A stretch of 64,000 nt of DNA from Entomobacter blattae (lineage in GTDB: Bacteria; Pseudomonadota; Alphaproteobacteria; Acetobacterales; Acetobacteraceae). The stretch is taken from assembly GCF_014672835.1 (NCBI RefSeq), contig NZ_CP060244.1, forward strand, positions 1,033,001-1,097,000. The letters are read 5' to 3'. Positions 4,105 through 45,283 of the stretch are shown in pieces; position 1 is the stretch's first letter; each line of letters starts with the position of its first letter. Both the position numbers and the translations under genes were made by a program. A model generated the notes under the pieces. The model searched no databases, had not been told where the DNA came from, and was given only the letters and a program-made list of their open reading frames with translations.

Positions 4105-4530
4105 CAGGTTTCCTCTGTGGGAGGTTTCAAAAAGGGTTTTACGTGCAGAGAGGTGAGACTATTTATGATGATGGAGGTTTTGAGGCAGAAAACCCTAGTA
4201 GAAGAAAGTGCTCATAGGGGTGGTGAACAACTGAAATTCTCCATTCTTACCCTTTGTGGTAGGGAAGAAGCAGAAGAAGAAGTAGGAGAAGGCAATGAAG
4301 AAAATCGGGAAGAGGGGCCCAAAAAAAGGCGCAAACACTCCAAAGCACATAATGCGATGGCCCTTACCGCTCCTTCTGAGACGTGGCAGGAAGAAATAAA
4401 GTTTTATAACCCAATTGCTCTCTTGCTTTATCTCTGTAACGATAAGGTTCGTAACCGTGGCAAACAGTGTTTTTACCGTTTGGGGTCATGGCGTGTTATG
4501 TGGATAAAAACCGCGCATAATAAGGGGTTT

Positions 4531-4735
4531 GCCTACGTCCACATAGACAACGAATGTGAATCGTATCGTGCTGGGTGAGGGGCGCTGTCTTGCCTATCCA
4601 CATAGGTAACAAGATTATTGTGATGGGTGATATGAACAACCAACGGCTTGTCCACGTTCATATAGGCAATGAGATTATGATGATGAGTGATGTTAATAAC
4701 CAACGGTTTGCTAAATCATATATGCCAGCAACCCA
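4531..4735 (+). repeat. Decayed CRISPR-like tract A (60-bp period)
   Basis: Aligned on the shared ATAG/ATATG core, units sit at 4543, 4602, 4662 and about 4720, giving spacings of 59, 60 and about 59. The second unit contains the palindrome CCTATCCACATAGG. A weaker unit may start near 4478. Units 2 and 3 also share most of the intervening sequence, so part of the tract is plain tandem duplication. Confidence 0.4.
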
Positions 4736-11301: not shown

Positions 11302-11513
11302 GGGCTGCTTTAAAGAGGTTTTCTTATATTCACCCTTAAATGTTTACCTTCAAAGCGCATCGCCTTCCTCAGCGGTGCTGAATCAGGCCTGCCGCACCTC
11401 TTCATAAGTGTAAAAAAGGGGTGTGTTCTTTAGGAAAATGTAAGAATAAGCTTATTGTTCAACGAATTTTGGCTTGAGATGACGGTTTGGTTTGCTTGAG
11501 ATCATGGTCTGGA

Positions 11514-11722
11514 GTAGCTCTCTTATCAATAGAGCTGTCAGATTCTCTTACCAGCCTACCAGGATTTTATTCGTAGTTCCCCTCTCCACAGAGCTGTCAG
11601 AACAAAGACCTCTATTTTAGAAACAAGCACAACGTAGCTCCCCTACCCACAGCTATCAGGTTATCAAAAAAAAGACAGTGGAACATTATGCCCTGTAGTT
11701 TCCCTTTCCATAGAGCTGGCAG
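11514..11722 (+). repeat. Decayed CRISPR-like tract B (four repeats, 61-bp period)
   Basis: Four copies of a 26-28 bp element begin GTAG(C/T)T(C/T) and end near CTGTCAG, at 11514, 11573, 11634 and 11695 (spacings 59, 61, 61). The 31-35 bp segments between them are unrelated to each other. The best copy starts GTAGTTCCCC, similar to the 5' half of the intact type I-E repeat (GTGTTCCCC). Copy 1 has the inverted pair AGCTC/GAGCT. A fifth, weaker unit may lie at about 11757. Confidence 0.6.
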
Positions 11723-11852
11723 CTCAATAGATGCGCGTGGAGTCTTCCGGCCATTCAGATCGCTCTTGTCCACAAGGGGGTTGGTCGGGGATAAAGATTT
11801 GGGTTTGAAGAAGAAAAATGCTTTACGCAGGGGAGTGTATGGTAGGATCTTT

Positions 11853-11937
11853 GAGAGGAGAGGAGAGGAGAGGAGAGGAGAGGAGAGGAGAGGAGAGGAG
11901 AGGAGAGGAGAGGAGAGGAGAGGAGAGGAGAGGAGAG
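11853..11937. repeat. Pentanucleotide tandem repeat (GAGAG, 17 copies)
   Basis: An uninterrupted 85-base run of a 5-bp unit. A unit not divisible by three would change reading frame with every copy gained or lost, but no credible gene is attached on either strand. Confidence 0.9.
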
Positions 11938-12420: not shown

Positions 12421-13068
12421 CTAAATATCCAGAATGTCCTGGGTGGTCTTTTTTAATAGGGCGATGAGGGCTTTCTCCTGTTCGGGGGAGCATCCTTTTT
12501 TTTGATGTAGGGCCTCTTTAAGGGCTTTACGAGCCTGGAAATACTCCGTATGGCCTTCGTGGGCGGGATCACCTTCTGTGTAGAAAGTATCTTGCCATTC
12601 AGCCATTCTTTTTCCCATCGAAATGAGGGTGGCTTTCAACTGGTTGGCTAGCTCCCTTTGTTGGTCCAGGGTGTGGTGGCCCGCTTCTGTTAGGGCGTAA
12701 AGTTTTCGGGATCCTTCCTGATTCACCGTGGCGTATTCCGCTTCTTCCAGATAGGTTAAGGCCGGATATATCATTCCCGGGCTGGGCTTGTAAAACCCTT
12801 GAGAAAGGGCTTCTAGACGAGTGATAAGCTCGTATCCATGCGCGGGGGCTTCTGCAAGCAGGGCTAAAAGAAGAAGTTGCAAATCTTCAGAGCGCAACTT
12901 ACGCCCTAACCGCATGGGAATGCCACCCTCTCTTCTGCTGCCCCCTTTAAAGGGATGCCGGTGCGGTTTTCTTTCCTGAGAATGATGGCGAGCATGCGCA
13001 GGGTCAAAAAAGGGATTACGGGTCAAAGGGTGATGGCGTTTTTTCATTTTAAATAGTTTTATCGTCAT
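12421..13068 (-). CDS. PadR family regulator with His-rich N-terminus (YqjI-like)
   Basis: Winged-helix transcription repressor. The 215-residue protein has a basic, histidine-rich lead (about residues 8-50, with HH, HARHH and HRH clusters). The PadR DNA-binding domain follows, starting LRSEDLQLLLLALLAEAP, then AHGYELITRLEALSQG, SPGMIYPALTYLEEAEY and RKLYALTEAG, and a C-terminal dimerisation helix. A His-rich lead in front of a PadR domain is the layout of E. coli YqjI, a nickel-responsive repressor, so metal sensing is plausible but inferred. The start at 13068 has AAGGA nine bases upstream. Two palindromes sit immediately upstream, suggesting autoregulation. No divergently transcribed ferric-reductase gene (the YqjI target) is present; the adjacent 3 kb is non-coding. 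Confidence 0.8.
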   Translation of the reverse strand: MTIKLFKMKKRHHPLTRNPFFDPAHARHHSQERKPHRHPFKGGSRREGGIPMRLGRKLRSEDLQLLLLALLAEAPAHGYELITRLEALSQGFYKPSPGMIYPALTYLEEAEYATVNQEGSRKLYALTEAGHHTLDQQRELANQLKATLISMGKRMAEWQDTFYTEGDPAHEGHTEYFQARKALKEALHQKKGCSPEQEKALIALLKKTTQDILDI

Positions 13069-15283: not shown

Positions 15284-15437
15284 CTTCAGAGCCTTCAGAG
15301 CCTTCAGAGCCTTCAGAGCCTTCAGAGCCTTCAGAGCCTTCAGAGCCTTCAGAGCCTTCAGAGCCTTCAGAGCCTTCAGAGCCTTCAGAGCCTTCAGAGC
15401 CTTCAGAGCCTTCAGAGCCTTCAGAGCCTTCAGAGCC
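15284..15437. repeat. 9-bp tandem repeat (GAGCCTTCA, about 17 copies)
   Basis: Nearly perfect 154-base array. All three plus-strand frames are open and would give (SEP)n, (RAF)n or (LQS)n, but flanking sequence gives no gene, so these frames are an artefact of the repeat. Confidence 0.9.
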
Positions 15438-16085
15438 TGAAATTTCTGCTTGAGAAGTTAGCCCTTTTTGCGGGAGACAGAGCAGCAGTATTTTATGAAG
15501 CGGTATTTTATTAAGAATAATTTTGATGGAAAATAGAAATTTTCGTCCCCTTTAGGAAGTAAAAGTAAGAGAATTAACTTTTTAAAACTTCACATTTATG
15601 CTATCTATAAAGAATAAAGTAATCATTTTCTATTAACTGCTTACAAATTCATTGATCTGCCCTTTCTATAAGGGAGAAGTGTAATAAAAAGGGCAGTAGT
15701 GGTGGGTTTTTCCCTCCTTGTCATTACTTTATAAAAGAAGCTTTTTCCCCATCCTATCAGCCCAAGTGGAAACCGTATTCAAATGCGGTTTGAAGAATGT
15801 TGTCCTATTTTGAATAGCCTATTTTGAATAGACAGGGCATCAAAATCATAGGCTTCCAATAAAATATCAAAGAAAATTACAGGAAAGGTCGATGTTGACC
15901 GGTTTTATATTGCAAGAGTGATTTTTCTCTCTTCCAAGAGACGCATCCTGTGAAAGGCATAAGGCTGATGAAAATCATTTAGCCCTTCATATTTCATGGC
16001 CTTGATAAAGGCCATTATTGGGGTTCTGTTCCAAAAAAAGTCGGGGAGGATGGGCCTTAAAAAGGCTTTAACATTTCTGTTATTT

Positions 16086-17467: not shown

Positions 17468-17528
17468 ATAAGTGCGGTAATAGTTCATTTGCAAAAGGGT
17501 CCCATCTGCAAAAGGGACGGTATGGAAG

Positions 17529-17740
17529 ATTACCCTCCTCTCATGGGGAAGATGGCTTCCACATCGCTCCATCACATGCGCTGTTCCAGATTACTCTTCC
17601 CCCGTGGGGGAAGATGTCGTGGGGCTGGCTTTTAGGCCAGTGTGCGCAAAGGTTACCCTTATCTTCGTGGGTATGGGAGAACCGATGTCGATTGTTCTAT
17701 CCCGTACCAAATTATCCCTTCCCCTTGTGGGTAAGGAAGG
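17529..17740 (+). repeat. Decayed CRISPR-like tract C (four units, ~61-bp period)
   Basis: Units with TTAC/TTAT at 17530, 17591, 17653 and 17712 (spacings 61, 62, 59). Each unit is followed by a C-rich then G-rich half. The second has the near-perfect palindrome CTTCCCCCGTGGGGGAAG. Intervening segments differ from one another. Confidence 0.5.
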
Positions 17741-31368: not shown

Positions 31369-31470
31369 CTCTATCAGAGTAGGGCCATAGTCGCCCCGCT
31401 CTGTGGGCAGCGAAACAGGAATATTGTTCTCATCATGGCTTAACACTGGGATAAAAAGAGAAAGGGCAAT

Positions 31471-31795
31471 TTCTGGACGTGTGAGGAAAGCTGTGGACAG
31501 GAAGATCCCTCCCACATTTTTAACCGTATTTCCTCTACATGTGAGGACTATGGACGCCTACCGGCATAACAGCACTGGGTGAGTCGTGATTCCCTACATG
31601 TGAAGACAATAGAGGGGGACGGCTTTTCTCACAAAAAAGATTAGGGACATAATTGCCCTACATATGAGGACTATGGGCCGTGACAGGTTTAGAATAAATT
31701 GTTTGTTCTGGTCATTTCCCTATGTGAGGACTATGGACACCTACCAGCATAACAGCATGGAGAAGTTGTGATTTCCCTATGTGTAAGGATTATGG
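31471..31795 (+). repeat. Decayed CRISPR-like tract E (six units, ~60-bp period)
   Basis: Units aligned on GTGAGGA lie at 31481, 31541, 31600, 31664, 31724 and 31783 (spacings 60, 59, 64, 60, 59). A typical unit reads TTCCCTACATGTGAGGACTA, and one has the stem CCTC/GAGG. The segments after units 2 and 5 are near-identical (CCTACC.GCATAACAGCA), as in a duplicated spacer. The others are unrelated. A possible earlier unit lies near 31390. Confidence 0.6.
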
Positions 31796-32176
31796 TGCCC
31801 AACAAGGGGAGTTTTGCTCTATTGGTGTACTGTCCTAGGTTTGTCTAGGTTTGAGAAATCCATAGATTTGAGAAATATTGGTTCTTATAAGCGCCCAGAA
31901 ATAAGTAATCAGAAATAAGGGCTCTGAAATAAGTGTTCAGAACATTCTAACCCTTATCTTTTCCATAGGTTTGGGAAAGGTTTGAGGAGGGGGTGAGTCT
32001 TTTCCTCAGTGAGAAGATTTGTGAGAGGATTGGCCTCATCTCCTTCTCACAGCACATCTTCCTATAGGGCCAATTTTGTAAGATCAATTTTGAGCCTATA
32101 AGGCTAATTGTTGGGGTAAGGCGATAATAAAGGCAGGCTTACAAACCCCAAAAACTTTCCTGACGAAAAACAGGAC

Positions 32177-33790: not shown

Positions 33791-35069
33791 AACACACCCT
33801 TTCTAGCTTTTTATAAGCTGATTTTACATGAAAAGCCCTTTTCTTTGTTGACGATTTACGTGCAATTGTAAATTCATTTTTTAACAAAAAATAAAGAGTC
33901 TTTACAGAACCCGCCTAAGGTCATGGCTTTGGGCCAGAAGTCTATCAGAAGTTTATCAGAAGCCTATCGGAAGTTTACCAGAAGTTTACCAGAAGTTTGC
34001 CTGGAATCTACGAGAAGACTGCCAAAGGACTGTCAGAAATTTGCCTGAAATCTGTCAGAAGCGGTAAGGGAATAATCAAGATTACCTCCCTCTCCAGCAT
34101 ATCGTCTTCTACCATACTATCTTTAAGACTTCCTATCTTATTAACAGGTGATAAGGGTTGACAGGCGATAAGGGGGAACATTTTGATTGGGAATCCAAAC
34201 CTTATCTGGTGGGGGTGCTGTTTGCCAGAAAATGTCTATTGGTATACCCCCACGGGGGTACCAAGACCCTCCTATTCGTAACCAGAAGGGTTCAAGACGT
34301 TTTTATAAGAGCGGAGGAAAAAAAGGGTACAGGCCTCATGAAAAGCCCCGTGGTTTCTAAAGCTATGCAGGTAGAGCTTTAAGGATTTGCTTTCTACAAT
34401 CCATTTTTGAGGAATGTAATCAATAACAATATGCGCAAAATCTGGCTGCCCAGTAATGGGGCAGAGAGAGGTACATTCTGGCGCTGTAAAGCGAATAAGG
34501 TATTTTTTCCCCTGATGAGGAGCTTCTACACGTTCTCAGAAGGTCACTCTCACCCATCATAACAAGATCGGCGGCATTTTTCCCATGGATATTTTGGCGG
34601 ATATTTTGGGTATTTTTCCATGGATAATGATCTCTTGAAGAACCTTTAGCTGACCAGTAAACAGGAACTGTCCTACCATAAGAACCCACCATAGAACCTC
34701 TCTTAAAAGGTGAGATTTCATAAAAAACGTGAGATTCTATAAGGCATTACGGTGATAGGAGGCATAAAGAGCAGGGCTACGGGGTGGTTTTGTCTGACAG
34801 CTGGGCTTGCCTGATAGGTGGGCATGTTTGACAAGAGAGTTTGGAAAAGGGTTAGGGAAAAGGCAAAACAAAACACAGGTAGCTTCTTAAAAGAACAGAC
34901 AACAAAAACAGGCGGCCTATTAAAAGATAAGAGGCAACCTGTGTTGAAAGAGGCTTTTGCCAAGCCTGCGGGGTTCTCATCGGCACATTGCCTTCTAGTA
35001 GGCCTTGGCATTCATTGGCTGATAGATGTATCTCGTAAGTGTGGTGAGAATACAGGGTATCTCAATGCT
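33791..35069. other. Non-coding stretch with tandem repeats and a queF remnant
   Basis: Imperfect 13-14 bp repeats (AGAAGTTTACC-like) fill about 33938-34060. The queF remnant is at 34180-34545. The remaining 500 bases show nothing I recognise. Confidence 0.5.
34180..34545 (-). pseudogene. queF: Remnant of 7-cyano-7-deazaguanine reductase QueF
   Basis: Minus-strand reading gives [20 protein letters not shown], then [20 protein letters not shown] and [20 protein letters not shown]. After a frameshift it gives [20 protein letters not shown] and [17 protein letters not shown]. This is QueF in order, including the catalytic Cys in SLCP and the C-terminal YPRGGIPID block. QueF reduces preQ0 to preQ1 in queuosine synthesis. 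The frameshift and missing N-terminus show it is dead. Confidence 0.85.
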
Positions 35070-37131: not shown

Positions 37132-37330
37132 ATGAGTTTCTTTTCCAATTTCTTTGCTCGTAATAGCTCTGCCCCCGTCGCACGAGACAGGCTCCAGATT
37201 CTCCTCTCTCATGAGCATTCCAACAACGATCTTCCTTCTGATCTTTTAGCAAAACTTAACCATGAAATTCTGGAAGTTATTAAAAAACATATTTCCATAG
37301 ATCAGGAAAAAATTCAGGAAAGCCTCTTCT
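37132..37330 (+). pseudogene. minE: Truncated cell division topological factor MinE
   Basis: The frame starts at ATG with AAAAGGAGT upstream and reads SFFSNFFARNSSAPVARDRL, then QILLSHEH and HEILEVIKKHISIDQEKI. These are the membrane-targeting and anti-MinCD parts of MinE. The sequence then leaves the family (ESLFFPRVGYWSF), and the topological specificity domain is missing. An intact minCDE should be elsewhere. Confidence 0.8.
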
Positions 37331-37619
37331 TTCCTAGAGTGGGGTATTGGTCATTTTGTGGGAGCTTTTTCTGATTCTTCTCCCATCTTTGAACCCCGTC
37401 TTTGAACCCTGTCTTTGAAAGCAGCTTGGAAGCTGACCATTTTACACCTGGAAAAGGGATGTAGTTTTAGGGCCAAGTGAAGAAGGGATTGCAGCTTTGG
37501 GGGGATATTCGCAAAACCCGTATTGCGGTCTTGTTGCGTATGAGCATTTTCTCTGCCTTGGTCGTACGGGAAAAAAATAAAATAGTGAGAAAATAAAAAA
37601 CAGTGGAAAAATAAAATTT

Positions 37620-37990
37620 GGGGGAAGCTGTACATCTTCCACCAATACAGGCAAAAAAGACGGTGCAACGACTTCATCAATCAATAACGTTTCTGTTGCT
37701 CCGCAAATCCCTCCCCGGCGCATTTTAGCATTCAGCAAAATCTTACGGGCCATCTCCAGTTCTGCATCCGTATGGATATAAATATGGCATAACCCTTCAG
37801 CATGCGTTAACATTGGCCCTCATTGGCCCTCATTGGCCCTCATTGGCCCTCATTGGCCCTCATTGGCACCCGAGATTCGTGAAGAACGAATCCGACAAGC
37901 GATTTCTCGCCTCGTGGAATGATGAGCTCTATCATATCAGAAGCATGAAGCATTTCCTTAACGCGCTCCCGATCACTATTGGGGGCAATG
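37620..37990 (-). pseudogene. proA: Fragment of gamma-glutamyl phosphate reductase ProA invaded by a 10-bp repeat
   Basis: The minus strand reads DRERVKEMLHASDMIELIIP and RGEKSLVGFVLHESRVP, then the tandem repeat CCAATGAGGG. After it comes HAEGLCHIYIHTDAELEMAR, then KMRRGGICGATETLLIDEVV. These are neighbouring conserved blocks of ProA (proline synthesis), with the family's catalytic Cys in GGICGATE. In intact ProA the two parts are joined directly, so the repeat (37811-37867) expanded inside the dead gene and shifts its frame. Confidence 0.8.
37811..37867. repeat. 10-bp tandem repeat (CATTGGCCCT, five copies plus partial)
   Basis: Perfect copies lying inside the proA fragment. Confidence 0.9.
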
Positions 37991-38003: not shown

Positions 38004-38210
38004 CTATACCGGATCAACCAACCACACAAGTGTTCCTTCGGTTGTAATATGGCTTGCTACTTCTGCTGGATCACCAACCCTAACGCGAGAAAATACTTCT
38101 TTTTTGCTCGCACCGTTTAACATAAAGACAACATGACGGCTTGAGTGAATTGCTGGAAAAGTTAACGTCACCCGAGTATGTGGGGCATCTATTGGTTGGT
38201 TCTTTAGCAA
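38004..38210 (-). pseudogene. pgl: C-terminal fragment of 6-phosphogluconolactonase
   Basis: RVTLTFPAIHSSRHVVFMLN, then GASKKEVFSRVRVGDPAE and TEGTLVWLVDPV, is the final third of Pgl (pentose phosphate pathway). It includes the conserved RVTLT block and the terminal TLxWxVD. No upstream part of Pgl is recognisable. Confidence 0.75.
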
Positions 38211-40534: not shown

Positions 40535-41161
40535 ATGACACGCTCTTTATGCAAAGCTCTCTTTTTTGTTACTGTGTTCGTACTGCTAACAGGTTGTGCT
40601 GAGTCTCCTCCGGCTCAACACGAAAATGTGTGTGCTATCTTTACTGAAAAATCCGATTGGTACGACGCTGCCAAAGAGATGCAAGGCAAGTGGCATATTC
40701 CCTTTTATGTTCCTCTGGCCATGATGGAGCAGGAATCAAGCTTTCAAAGTGATGTTCACCCGCCTGAAACCTATTTGTTGGGGTTTATTCCATGGGGGTA
40801 TGTGAGCTCTGCTTATGGGTATGCCCAAGCGAAGGATGAAGTGTGGGAAGATTACCAAGATAACACTGGCCATACCAGCGCGGATCGAGAAGATTTTGGT
40901 GACGCGCTTGATTTTATGGCCTGGTATATGTCTAAAAGCCGACATTACAATAAAGTCCCCTATAGCAATGCTTATGCCCATTATCTGAACTATCACGAAG
41001 GGTGGGGGGGATACCGCCGGGGAACCTATCGTGCCAAAAAATGGCTTATGGGGGTTGCTGGGAAAGTGAGCAATAGGGCGGAGCGGTATAAAAGGCAATA
41101 TGCCAGCTGCAAGGCGCGGCTGGATAAGAAAGACGATGATGGGTTTTTAGGGTTGTTTTAA
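40535..41161 (+). CDS. Lipoprotein with lytic transglycosylase (SLT) domain
   Basis: A 208-residue outer-membrane or periplasmic muramidase. The signal peptide ends in the lipobox LLTGC, so it is lipid-anchored. The catalytic segment LAMMEQESSF carries the Glu of the SLT fold, followed by GYVSSAYGYAQAKDEVWEDY (the G-Y-A/M-Q motif). Later YLNYHEGWGGYRRGTYR is the conserved C-terminal YN/YHEG loop. It is related to the small SLT proteins of acetic acid bacteria and E. coli MltC-type catalytic domains. It cuts glycan strands for turnover or envelope machines. It is a single gene, with decayed CRISPR-like tract F beginning 20 bases after the stop. Confidence 0.85.
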   Translation: MTRSLCKALFFVTVFVLLTGCAESPPAQHENVCAIFTEKSDWYDAAKEMQGKWHIPFYVPLAMMEQESSFQSDVHPPETYLLGFIPWGYVSSAYGYAQAKDEVWEDYQDNTGHTSADREDFGDALDFMAWYMSKSRHYNKVPYSNAYAHYLNYHEGWGGYRRGTYRAKKWLMGVAGKVSNRAERYKRQYASCKARLDKKDDDGFLGLF

Positions 41162-41182
41162 AAACAGGGTGCCTAATTATTG

Positions 41183-41332
41183 GTGTTGCCCCCACACAGA
41201 GGTAGATAGTCGGCAGCTTTAGAGGCCGAACAGTTTTTAGCAATGCTGCTTCCGTGCAGAGGAGGATAGTCGTCCCTATTATTGCACCAATTCATATGAA
41301 GGGCGCTGACTCCGCACAAAGGCGGATTTCCC
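41183..41332 (+). repeat. Decayed type I-E CRISPR tract F (three units, exact 60-bp period)
   Basis: Units start at 41183, 41243 and 41303. The first begins GTGTTGCCCCCACACAGAGG and is plainly related to the intact array's GTGTTCCCCGCACACGCGG. The third contains TCCGCACAAAGGCGGAT, close to the I-E palindrome. The 30-base segments between units differ. It lies 760 bases upstream of the intact array on the same strand. Confidence 0.7.
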
Positions 41333-41339
41333 CTAGAGC

Positions 41340-42060
41340 GAGAGTCTCTTGGCAAGAGAGGATTGATTTTTTTTAGGGGTGTTATCAGGCAGAAGGGGAT
41401 GGGATTGGTTTTTTGGTTTTTTCTCAAGGTGCAAATGGCCGATCATCAAGGATATTGGTGACCGCGAAAGGGTGGGTCATATAGGGATTGCCCTTATCGG
41501 CGAGTTTCTGGCTTCTGGTCTTTATAAGCCTTTAGAAAAGAAGATTTAATATTTTTAACATAACGGCCAGCAGCATCCCCCATCCTAACGGCCTGCCCTA
41601 TTGCTTCGGGTTGAGCCAAAATGAGCCTTTAGGGCCATGGCATAAGTTTTTTGCGGAATGTTCGTTTCAGCTTTTAGAGTATAGGATTTTATCCACTCAA
41701 AAGGCATTACCAAGAGGGGTAGCCCTTTTAGGCGGGCTCTTTATCTTCTGGAAGTTGAATGCCATTAATCCGGTATTGAACTTCATTATGATCACCGCGG
41801 ACATGGATTTGGTCAAAACTCTCTTGAGCAACTTTACACTTTTTATTGTGTCTGCTTATTGTGTTTGTTCTGGTTTCTTCGTTGGTTTTTTCTTGGGTTG
41901 GGTTCTTTTTTCCCTTAAGATCATCTTTTCCTCTGGTTTTTTAGTCTGCCCAAGAGTGGGCTTGTTCTCTCTCTGTCTGTTTCTTCTGGAGATCTTTTTC
42001 TCGACAGGGGATTAGAGGCTCTGATAGAGTGTGTTTTTATTGGTAGATTCTTTGACAGAA
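41340..42060. other. Spacer between decayed tract F and the intact CRISPR leader
   Basis: A hairpin TCTCTT/AAGAGA at about 41345-41360 is followed by an 8-T run (41367-41374). A TonB-receptor fragment is at 41736-41845. A 134-codon plus-strand open frame at 41611 is antisense to that fragment and is not called. Confidence 0.5.
41736..41845 (-). pseudogene. Plug-domain fragment of a TonB-dependent receptor
   Basis: Minus-strand reading VAQESFDQIHVRGDHNEVQY, then RINGIQLPED, ends in a stop. This is the plug-domain motif (SFGQLHVRGEHNEVQYRING-type) of outer-membrane receptors common in acetic acid bacteria. No barrel sequence remains. Confidence 0.7.
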
Positions 42061-42095
42061 AAATAACGACGCCAAATCAATAACTTACACGAAGA
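42061..42095 (+). promoter_or_regulatory. CRISPR leader with consensus IHF site
   Basis: AATCAATAACTTA (42075-42087) fits the IHF consensus WATCAA-N4-TTR perfectly and ends 8 bases before the first repeat. In type I-E systems IHF bends the leader at this place to guide Cas1-Cas2 insertion. The leader is AT-rich, as expected. Confidence 0.65.
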
Positions 42096-43527
42096 GTGTT
42101 CCCCGCACACGCGGGGATGAACCGTCAACGAATAACTCTTCTCACAGTTTTATCAAGTGTTCCCCGCACACGCGGGGATGAACCGAGGTTTCACGAGCCT
42201 TAAGAAAGGTTAGTAAGGTGTTCCCCGCACACGCGGGGATGAACCGCCGCGAGGTGGCGGTTTTCTGTCATTTAACGTGTGTTCCCCGCACACGCGGGGA
42301 TGAACCGGAAACATTTCATTTCGGATTTCTCTACGTCACGTGTTCCCCGCACACGCGGGGATGAACCGGTCTATCTCCCCTTCCCTGACCTGTATGGGAT
42401 GTGTTCCCCGCACACGCGGGGATGAACCGCCAATGCGCGCAGGGCCATTGAGAGTGGAGAGGTGTTCCCCGCACACGCGGGGATGAACCGTCTATGACCC
42501 ACCTCTATAACGATACAGACAGGTGTTCCCCGCACACGCGGGGATGAACCGCGTAAACGTCCACATCTGTTTGCTGTGTATTGGTGTTCCCCGCACACGC
42601 GGGGATGAACCGGGCGGGGCTGAGCAGGCTCTCCCGTAATGAGGGTGTTCCCCGCACACGCGGGGATGAACCGCGGCTTTCCACCTGTGTTTATGTTCAA
42701 TGCCTGTGTTCCCCGCACACGCGGGGATGAACCGACATTTTTCTGAAAATAAAATTTCAAAAAATTGTGTTCCCCGCACACGCGGGGATGAACCGGCAGG
42801 GGTTGATGTTATAGCGAGCAATATAGCGTGTTCCCCGCACACGCGGGGATGAACCGCTGTTTTCCTCTTATTGCTTTAGATTCAATAAGTGTTCCCCGCA
42901 CACGCGGGGATGAACCGTTACAATAAGAGTTTGTGCACCGGAAAATGGAGTGTTCCCCGCACACGCGGGGATGAACCGCATAACAGGCATCTGACCACGA
43001 GACCCAATGCGTGTTCCCCGCACACGCGGGGATGAACCGGTCGCAAGAGGGTTAAAAAATAAAAGTGCAGAGTGTTCCCCGCACACGCGGGGATGAACCG
43101 TGTAGTGAGGGTTTGGCTGAATGTTACAAGCCGTGTTCCCCGCACACGCGGGGATGAACCGGAGCGCAAACGGTTGTTGTCCAGCAAATAGTGGTGTTCC
43201 CCGCACACGCGGGGATGAACCAGCTTTTCCATTTTGGGTTACGTCAATCTGTTCGTGTTCCCCGCACACGCGGGGATGAACCGCCGTGCTATCTGGCGGT
43301 TTGATTCAGCCATTTGTGTTCCCCGCACACGCGGGGATGAACCGCACGAGGGCATAAACCCCTATATTTACGTTAAGTGTTCCCCGCACACGCGGGGATG
43401 AACCGCGGGAGAGTAGGGATGGAGTTTTTAGGTTTTGGTGTTCCCCGCACACGCGGGGATGAACCGATGGACTATAAAAACGTTGAGGGCTATAAAGAGT
43501 GTTCCCCGCACACGCGGGGATAGTGTA
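42096..43527 (+). CRISPR. Type I-E CRISPR array, 24 repeats and 23 spacers
   Basis: 29-bp repeats recur at exactly 61-base intervals from 42096 to 43499, with 32-bp spacers. The repeat has the I-E palindrome CCCCGCACACGCGGGG and ends GATGAACCG. All copies are identical except two: the one at about 43194 ends ACCA, and the last (43499) loses its 3' end (GGGGATAGTG). A degenerate last repeat puts the leader on the left, agreeing with the IHF site. No two spacers are alike, and none visibly matches this window. No cas gene lies within 64 kb, so the Cas proteins must be encoded elsewhere or be absent. Confidence 0.97.
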
Positions 43528-44360: not shown

Positions 44361-44575
44361 ACCCTTTAGGTGTGGAATAATCTCCAGATACGGGTAGGTC
44401 GCAAAGCCCGGTGGTGGGGCCACCTTGCCGATTATGTGTGGAATATCCGAAATAGTGGAAAATAATCCACCTCTATACCGAGTGCTCTCCCCTAGCTATG
44501 GAATATCTCCCGCAGGATGCAGGCGGTGGTAGCGGCAGCAAGCATCTTCTTCCCTAGATATGGAATATCCTCTTT
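44361..44575 (+). repeat. Decayed CRISPR-like tract G (four units, ~61-bp period)
   Basis: Units with T(G/A)TGGAATA at 44371, 44437, 44497 and 44559 (spacings 66, 60, 62). The better copies read CCCTAGCTATGGAATATC. The third begins GTGCTCTCCCC, like the 5' side of the I-E repeat. It lies 850 bases downstream of the intact array on the same strand. Confidence 0.5.
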
Positions 44576-45209: not shown

Positions 45210-45283
45210 TAGCCTAGTAGCCTAGTAGCCTAGTAGCCTAGTAGCCTAGTAGCCTAGTAGCCTAGTAGCCTAGTAGCCTAGTA
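45210..45283. repeat. 8-bp tandem repeat (AGCCTAGT, nine copies)
   Basis: Perfect copies in a non-coding region, 46 bases from the ybaK stop codon. Confidence 0.9.

Follow-up and report, generated by a model that had tools for sequence, protein, structure and literature searches.

Our results indicate that the tract at positions 41183-41332 of the window (the whole 64,000-nucleotide stretch of the Entomobacter blattae chromosome analysed here), hereafter tract A, is very probably CRISPR-derived. The earlier note took it for a decayed type I-E array; we now read it as a fossil, self-derived mini-array, most likely of ectopic origin. Judging from its sequence, tract A is probably the decayed remnant of an ectopic integration of self DNA by Cas1-Cas2, that is, of a "neo-CRISPR". 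What can be observed is the geometry of the tract, its self-derived spacers, an enrichment of PAMs in the class of tracts to which it belongs, a complete set of type I-E cas genes in the genome and a lack of leader similarity, and from these we infer an ectopic insertion. The strong evidence for a CRISPR origin is in the spacers, not in the repeats.

Tract A is a real three-unit tract with a period of exactly 60 bp, as the earlier note had described it, and the distance of about 760 bases to the live array (41332 to 42096) was likewise confirmed. In a self-comparison over 41161-41370, offset 60 gave 67/150 matching bases and was the best of the offsets 40-79; the runner-up, offset 57, gave 58/153, and most offsets gave about 0.23. 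Scanning the window blindly for three units recovered the tract as well. Its 28-nt units, in register, are TGTTGCCCCCACACAGAGGTAGATAGTC (from 41184), TGCTGCTTCCGTGCAGAGGAGGATAGTC (from 41244) and CGCTGACTCCGCACAAAGGCGGATTTCC (from 41304), with neighbouring units alike at 20/28 (1 vs 2) and 18/28 (2 vs 3) positions, or 64-71%; they show no tendency to form hairpins (mean z -0.11). The tract begins 22 nt past the stop codon of the SLT_4 transglycosylase-type gene (Table 1). Unit 3 may be cut, because the sequence from 41323 onward belongs to a stretch of 173 bp (41323-41495) that is 99% identical to genome 1127392-1127563; that second copy abuts a type I-E array (array 3), and the copy in the window follows tract A. 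Among the 40 genomes searched, the 39 others all belonging to other genera, tract A matched its own genome alone, and an Rfam search of the window returned one tRNA and nothing else.

Each of the two spacers of tract A has one further copy in the same genome, both in coding DNA, and the matches begin and end within a few bases of where the spacers do. Spacer 1 is identical at 31/32 positions to genome 120600-120631, the 3' end of a trxB-like ORF (Pyr_redox_2), where the source site is flanked by GCATG and so has the PAM ATG. Spacer 2 is identical at 33/38 positions to genome 796048-796085 on the minus strand, inside an ORF with an F5/F8 type C domain, and its source site has no AAG or ATG. Read by eye, the single change in spacer 1 turns R into Q, all five differences of spacer 2 from its source are nonsynonymous, and piece D1 of tract D has one W to stop change relative to its source. 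The changes thus appear, on this reading of the sequences by eye, to sit in the spacers and not in the source genes, and they look like drift of the spacer. The earlier note had proposed a search of the spacers against phages and plasmids; no match was found in the phage and plasmid collections, and what emerged were spacers from the cell's own genes, which that note had not foreseen. Both spacers therefore depart from the mobile-element origin expected of type I-E spacers, since both match own genes.

Table 1. Features of the window discussed in the text (window positions; genome positions where stated)
Feature	Position	Strand	Remarks
SLT_4 transglycosylase-type lipoprotein gene, upstream of tract A	40535..41161	+	
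Tract A, repeat unit 1	41184..41212	+	20/28 vs unit 2; sole unit clearly above chance vs I-E repeat
Tract A, spacer 1	41213..41243	+	match spans 41212-41243
Tract A, repeat unit 2	41244..41272	+	placed by period and register
Tract A, spacer 2	41273..41303	+	match spans 41273-41310
Tract A, repeat unit 3	41304..41331	+	perhaps truncated at 41322
Leader-like stretch of live I-E array	41973..42095	+	common to array at genome 1113503; query 11774-13203 matches genome 1113380-1114809
Live orphan I-E array	42096..43520	+	period 61, repeat GTGTTCCCCGCACACGCGGGGATGAACCG
Tract B, three units	4529..4675		piece 4554-4585 31/32 identical to own genome 1481846-1481877 (Peripla_BP_2 gene)
Tract C, 4-5 units	11513..11783		no self match among matches scored, no phage match
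Tract D, four units	17522..17732	+	piece 17555-17588 31/34 identical to genome 1152245-1152278 (FUSC gene), PAM AAG
Tract E, 6-7 units	31469..31856		no self match among matches scored, no phage match
Tract H, three units, weak	44419..44568		in one scan, missed by masked scans
Source site of spacer in tract at genome 1225777-1225807	12957..12987	-	28/31

Tract A is one of about 15 tracts, of varying certainty, that lie within 0.24 Mb around the window with a period of about 60 bp; each has its own repeat, and several carry pieces of self DNA of 31-36 nt. When the window and 64 further stretches (65 in all, 1,325,962 bases; the tract scans covered a sampled 52% of the genome) were scanned blindly for three units, 22 rows had a period of 59-61 bp, as against 1-7 in eleven other period classes. 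True arrays account for five of these rows, and a further five, four of them AT-rich and one a simple repeat, were judged by eye to be chance; the other 12 correspond to 10 tracts, every one between 1.032 and 1.257 Mb. The PurF protein of the genome falls in the Acetobacteraceae, at a best identity of 77-78%. In other Acetobacteraceae no peak at period 60 was seen, with 33 rows vs 28-53 at other periods in 80 loci (1,377,251 bases) of GC-rich coding DNA with a high background. As a group the tract units tend to form hairpins (mean z -1.26 vs -0.40 for random DNA of the region), and the mean hairpin z is -1 or lower in 9/14 tracts. In the sampled stretches the sign of the GC skew switches at about 0.6 and 1.93 Mb, which places the tract-rich region mid-replichore. 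The intergenic DNA of the window is also a mosaic, with 80-97% identical copies of longer genome stretches at 37231-37765, 34166-34539, 38013-38189 and elsewhere, and it contains perfect short tandem repeats at 11853-11937, 15284-15438, 45210-45283 and 37811-37867 (5, 9, 8, 10 bp; 6 to 17 copies).

Many tract spacers found no match, and among the matches listed there was none for any spacer of tracts C, E and G; tract G gave no self match longer than 16 nt. The long searches of the own genome scored the best 40 of 55 and 40 of 76 candidates, so weak self matches may be missing. Against phage, tract F gave only 27-nt hits at E 0.2, judged to be chance, and one of its pieces is identical at 27/33 positions to a prophage recT gene with 6/6 differences synonymous (by eye), so that at least one tract appears to have recorded a phage.

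All near-identical pairs of 28-40 nt within 1.41 Mb were listed in an all-against-all search, and at each short-match place the two flanks were compared for a 26-nt repeat spaced 57-64 bp apart. Between 993 and 1275 kb, 7/46 such places were flanked by a repeat at 60-bp spacing (null 1.3%), compared with 1/91 outside this interval (null 2.5%); the lone flanked place elsewhere, at 1679645, has repeats alike at 22/26 positions and looks real. Further cases, detected by this test or by eye, contain pieces of hemC-like, transketolase-like, PadR-like and rsmE-like genes (names by eye). AAG or ATG, the latter being a second functional type I-E PAM, borders the source site in 9/14 cases, vs 37/238 shifted positions (0.16) and 12/100 other short matches (0.12), an excess with p=5e-5 against either control. 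These 14 cases were hand-picked, several having been seen beforehand, and include a prophage gene (F3), an intergenic pair (S1032) and the doubtful pairs B3 and S1122, both without the motif; the rule, admitting either side at offset 0 or 1, was settled once the first cases had been read. Among the cases found after the PAM idea arose, 6/9 have AAG or ATG (p=8e-4). Geometry at 60-61 bp and the AAG/ATG motif thus bear out, for the class, the link between fossil tracts and type I-E CRISPR that the earlier note had drawn. In type I-E of E. coli, according to PMC10011333, AAG is the canonical PAM and its G becomes the final base of the repeat; spacers measure 31-34 nt, and of those acquired naively as many as half have this PAM.

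The type I-E cas set is complete at 2.36 Mb, with Cas3, Cse1, Cse2, Cas5, Cas6e, Cas1, Cas2 and Cas7 open and recognised, and the genome has four I-E arrays, three of them orphans inside the same 0.24 Mb as the tracts. A spacer of the live array at window 42491-42523 matches the related loci 2249844 and 2315165 (91-93%), probably prophages, and array 2 has a spacer that matches a baseplate-hub gene (2345883). In the cas-adjacent array (2359920-2360305), the leader-side repeats end in GGGGTATTCCCG and the older ones in GGGGATGAACCG, and one spacer is identical at 36/38 positions to a chromosomal ORF, without AAG or ATG. A single orphan I-E repeat core lies at 972993-973025, directly behind a stop codon and remote from any array. 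The second Cas1 of the genome belongs to a cas9-cas1-cas2 locus (1589855-1596102), whose array comprises 27 repeats of 36 nt with a period of 66 bp; two of 25 spacers in this array match the genome's rpsE-like and ftsH-like genes at 30/30 positions (sampled 52% searched). Given these self spacers in true arrays, adaptation from self is frequent here, and the survival of its products is not confined to ectopic sites.

One further site, at 1208595-1208697, consists of two perfect direct repeats of 36-37 nt around a 30-nt self piece, with a period of 66, as in the array of the cas9-cas1-cas2 locus. Its repeats resemble those of neither array, and the piece has a perfect 31-nt match to 1982984-1983014 (SDR-like ORF by eye), with GGGGG flanking the source. 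To judge by its sequence, this site looks as a fresh ectopic insertion by the Cas9-type system should look, and supports the mechanism independently of PAM and decay. Masking of short tandem repeats hid the site, and the unmasked search was used; for spaced perfect repeats it gave 8 rows, 5 of them at offsets 60, 61 or 66, and of the three rows at offset 66, two fall within short tandem repeats and were discounted.

Off-target integration of spacers is known from laboratory E. coli, in which Nivala et al. reportedly described, in 2018, neo-CRISPR loci arising by off-target (non-canonical) Cas1-Cas2 integration, work that PMC9456107 and PMC11687729 cite. There, as here, spacer-sized pieces with a type I-E PAM lie between direct repeats of local sequence, remote from the CRISPR leader; the tracts of this natural genome differ in being old, decayed and multi-spacer, with repeats no longer identical. 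In tract A the resident type I-E Cas1-Cas2 would have taken up pieces of 32-33 nt of its own chromosome, from trxB and a second gene, chosen largely beside AAG or ATG. Insertion would have occurred at a non-CRISPR site just past the stop codon of a gene, with some 28 bp of local sequence being duplicated as the "repeat". As this repeat would be local sequence, Cas6e/Cascade could probably not use it, so that the self spacers would be harmless and the array would have drifted. Tract A is now probably inert, and its transcripts would presumably escape processing. Modified PAMs, missing effectors and anomalous insertions are among the routes by which self spacers survive, as listed in the relevant part of PMC10011333.

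The arrangement that characterises a neo-CRISPR, a spacer-sized piece between direct repeats of local sequence with the length of the resident repeat, is found in tract A (28-nt units at 60 bp). The identity of the repeats varies: at 1208595 they are perfect over 37 nt, and in tract A 8/28 positions differ around a spacer kept at 31/32. At 1269283 the spacer is kept at 33/33, yet the flanking repeats differ at 10/28, and the surroundings look like an older tandem of similar units. Over nine tract cases, repeats differ at 85/252 sites (16.9% per copy) and spacers differ from their sources at 29/306 (9.5%). Repeats are thus more diverged than spacers, which is a difficulty for an ectopic origin, because duplicated copies are expected to be identical at first and to decay equally. 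Well-preserved spacers are the more readily detected, and this does not fully explain the excess divergence of the repeats. The I-E likeness of unit 1, the lack of a hairpin tendency in tract A, the lack of a PAM at spacer 2 and the many unmatched spacers also speak against an ectopic origin.

The main rival, which we consider unlikely, is that tract A is a decayed orphan type I-E array, which had a leader and I-E-like repeats, acquired self spacers, lost the leader and decayed. Tract A may have such an origin, its unit 1 being similar to the I-E repeat. This unit aligns with it better than shuffles and random hairpins do (p 0.002-0.004), unit 3 is borderline (p 0.02-0.15) and unit 2 is not above them (p 0.13-0.46), so that the kinship to the intact repeat claimed by the earlier note for the first and third units holds for the first and is borderline for the third; alignment no better than that of random hairpins, named there as counting against the claim, was found for unit 2, not for unit 1. 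The tract as a whole has a weak likeness to the I-E repeats of this genome (p=0.027), and the repeats of tract F are I-E-like (p=0.045); over eight tracts p ranges from 0.015 to 0.78 (combined p=0.019), with 4/8 at p>0.5, which argues against the decayed array. The type I-E array and tract A have in common a period of 60-61 bp, spacers of about 32 nt and cas genes in the genome, and AAG or ATG at sources is seen for spacer 1 of tract A, not for spacer 2, and in 9/14 cases of the class; the tract differs in having its own repeat in place of near-identical I-E consensus repeats, no leader, self spacers and units that are 64-71% alike. Its units have in common bases absent from the live I-E repeat, and because these non-canonical bases are shared, independent mutation of a canonical I-E repeat was rejected as their sole origin; a decayed array would explain them by copying of a mutated first repeat. 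That an array can have its own derived repeat is seen in the cas-adjacent one (GTATTCCCCGCACGCGCGGGGTATTCCCG on the leader side, ...GATGAACCG further in), and both the decayed I-E repeats that trail the array at 1127564 and the three orphan arrays of the region favour this rival. Against it, no likeness to the live-array leader was found in 150 bp on either side of tract A (p 0.76 and 0.62) or at any of the 16 flanks of eight tracts (lowest p 0.065, at tract H). Self spacers with AAG or ATG in a true array should be lethal or purged, according to a general statement in the relevant part of PMC10011333, and the whole-genome hits of the two large I-E arrays, for at least 2/44 spacers, are to one baseplate-hub gene and one probable prophage gene. 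Of the earlier reading as a decayed I-E array, then, the CRISPR origin stands, through spacer size, the two self matches and the PAM test of the class, and descent as a decayed copy of the intact array is the less likely account, given the shared bases absent from the live repeat, the weak likeness, the missing leader and the spacers from own genes.

It is very improbable that the tract is a functional crRNA-like regulator, either CreA-like or a mini-array of guides, that represses own genes through Cascade. Degenerate repeats and partial self complementarity are the appearance of CreA genes, and the degenerate minimal CRISPR CreA/CreTA has highly divergent flanking repeats too, in the portion of PMC8501985 that describes them; a complete I-E effector set is present in the genome. 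CreA, as portrayed in that portion, is one guide to the promoter of a neighbouring toxin, whereas tract A has two spacers to distant coding DNA. Complementarity to an adjacent promoter within a cas locus, as in CreA, is absent: the sources are coding sequences at 120.6 and 796 kb (the 3' end of trxB and about 170 nt into the other gene), scattered and not in promoters, and cas is at 2.36 Mb, 1.28 Mb from tract A. The changes in the spacers resemble unconstrained drift (by eye), and the tract repeats differ among themselves and mostly from the Cas6e substrate as well. Apart from the self matches, nothing supports a regulatory function. Least probable of all appears a chance 60-bp tandem repeat, unrelated to CRISPR, in an intergenic mosaic of duplicated gene fragments. 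Longer duplicated fragments are indeed common in the intergenic DNA of the window, as are short matches without flanking repeats (39/46 in the island, 90/91 elsewhere); the period peak at 60, the spacer-sized matches between units and the excess of flanking repeats and PAMs argue against chance. Ectopic integration is also known in Streptococcus type II-A, where Cas1-Cas2 integration is likewise misplaced; in the part of PMC7999890 concerned, spacers there enter the middle of a true array and not other loci.

In the titles and abstracts searched, which lie mostly outside the subscription literature, we found no report of neo-CRISPR loci, ectopic integration or degenerate self-targeting mini-arrays in a natural genome. 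A wider reading can be offered tentatively: this chromosome may be a natural record of the de novo birth of CRISPR, in which two integrases, of type I-E and Cas9-type, would repeatedly have inserted host-gene fragments at non-CRISPR sites and founded mini-arrays with new repeats that reached several units before decay, and ectopic integration might then be a natural source of new arrays and repeat families. If this is true, a natural genome keeps about 15 ectopic integration events of differing ages, from two integrases and with identifiable source sites and PAMs, and one could test directly how new CRISPR arrays arise, which targets Cas1-Cas2 prefers outside arrays and what becomes of self spacers.
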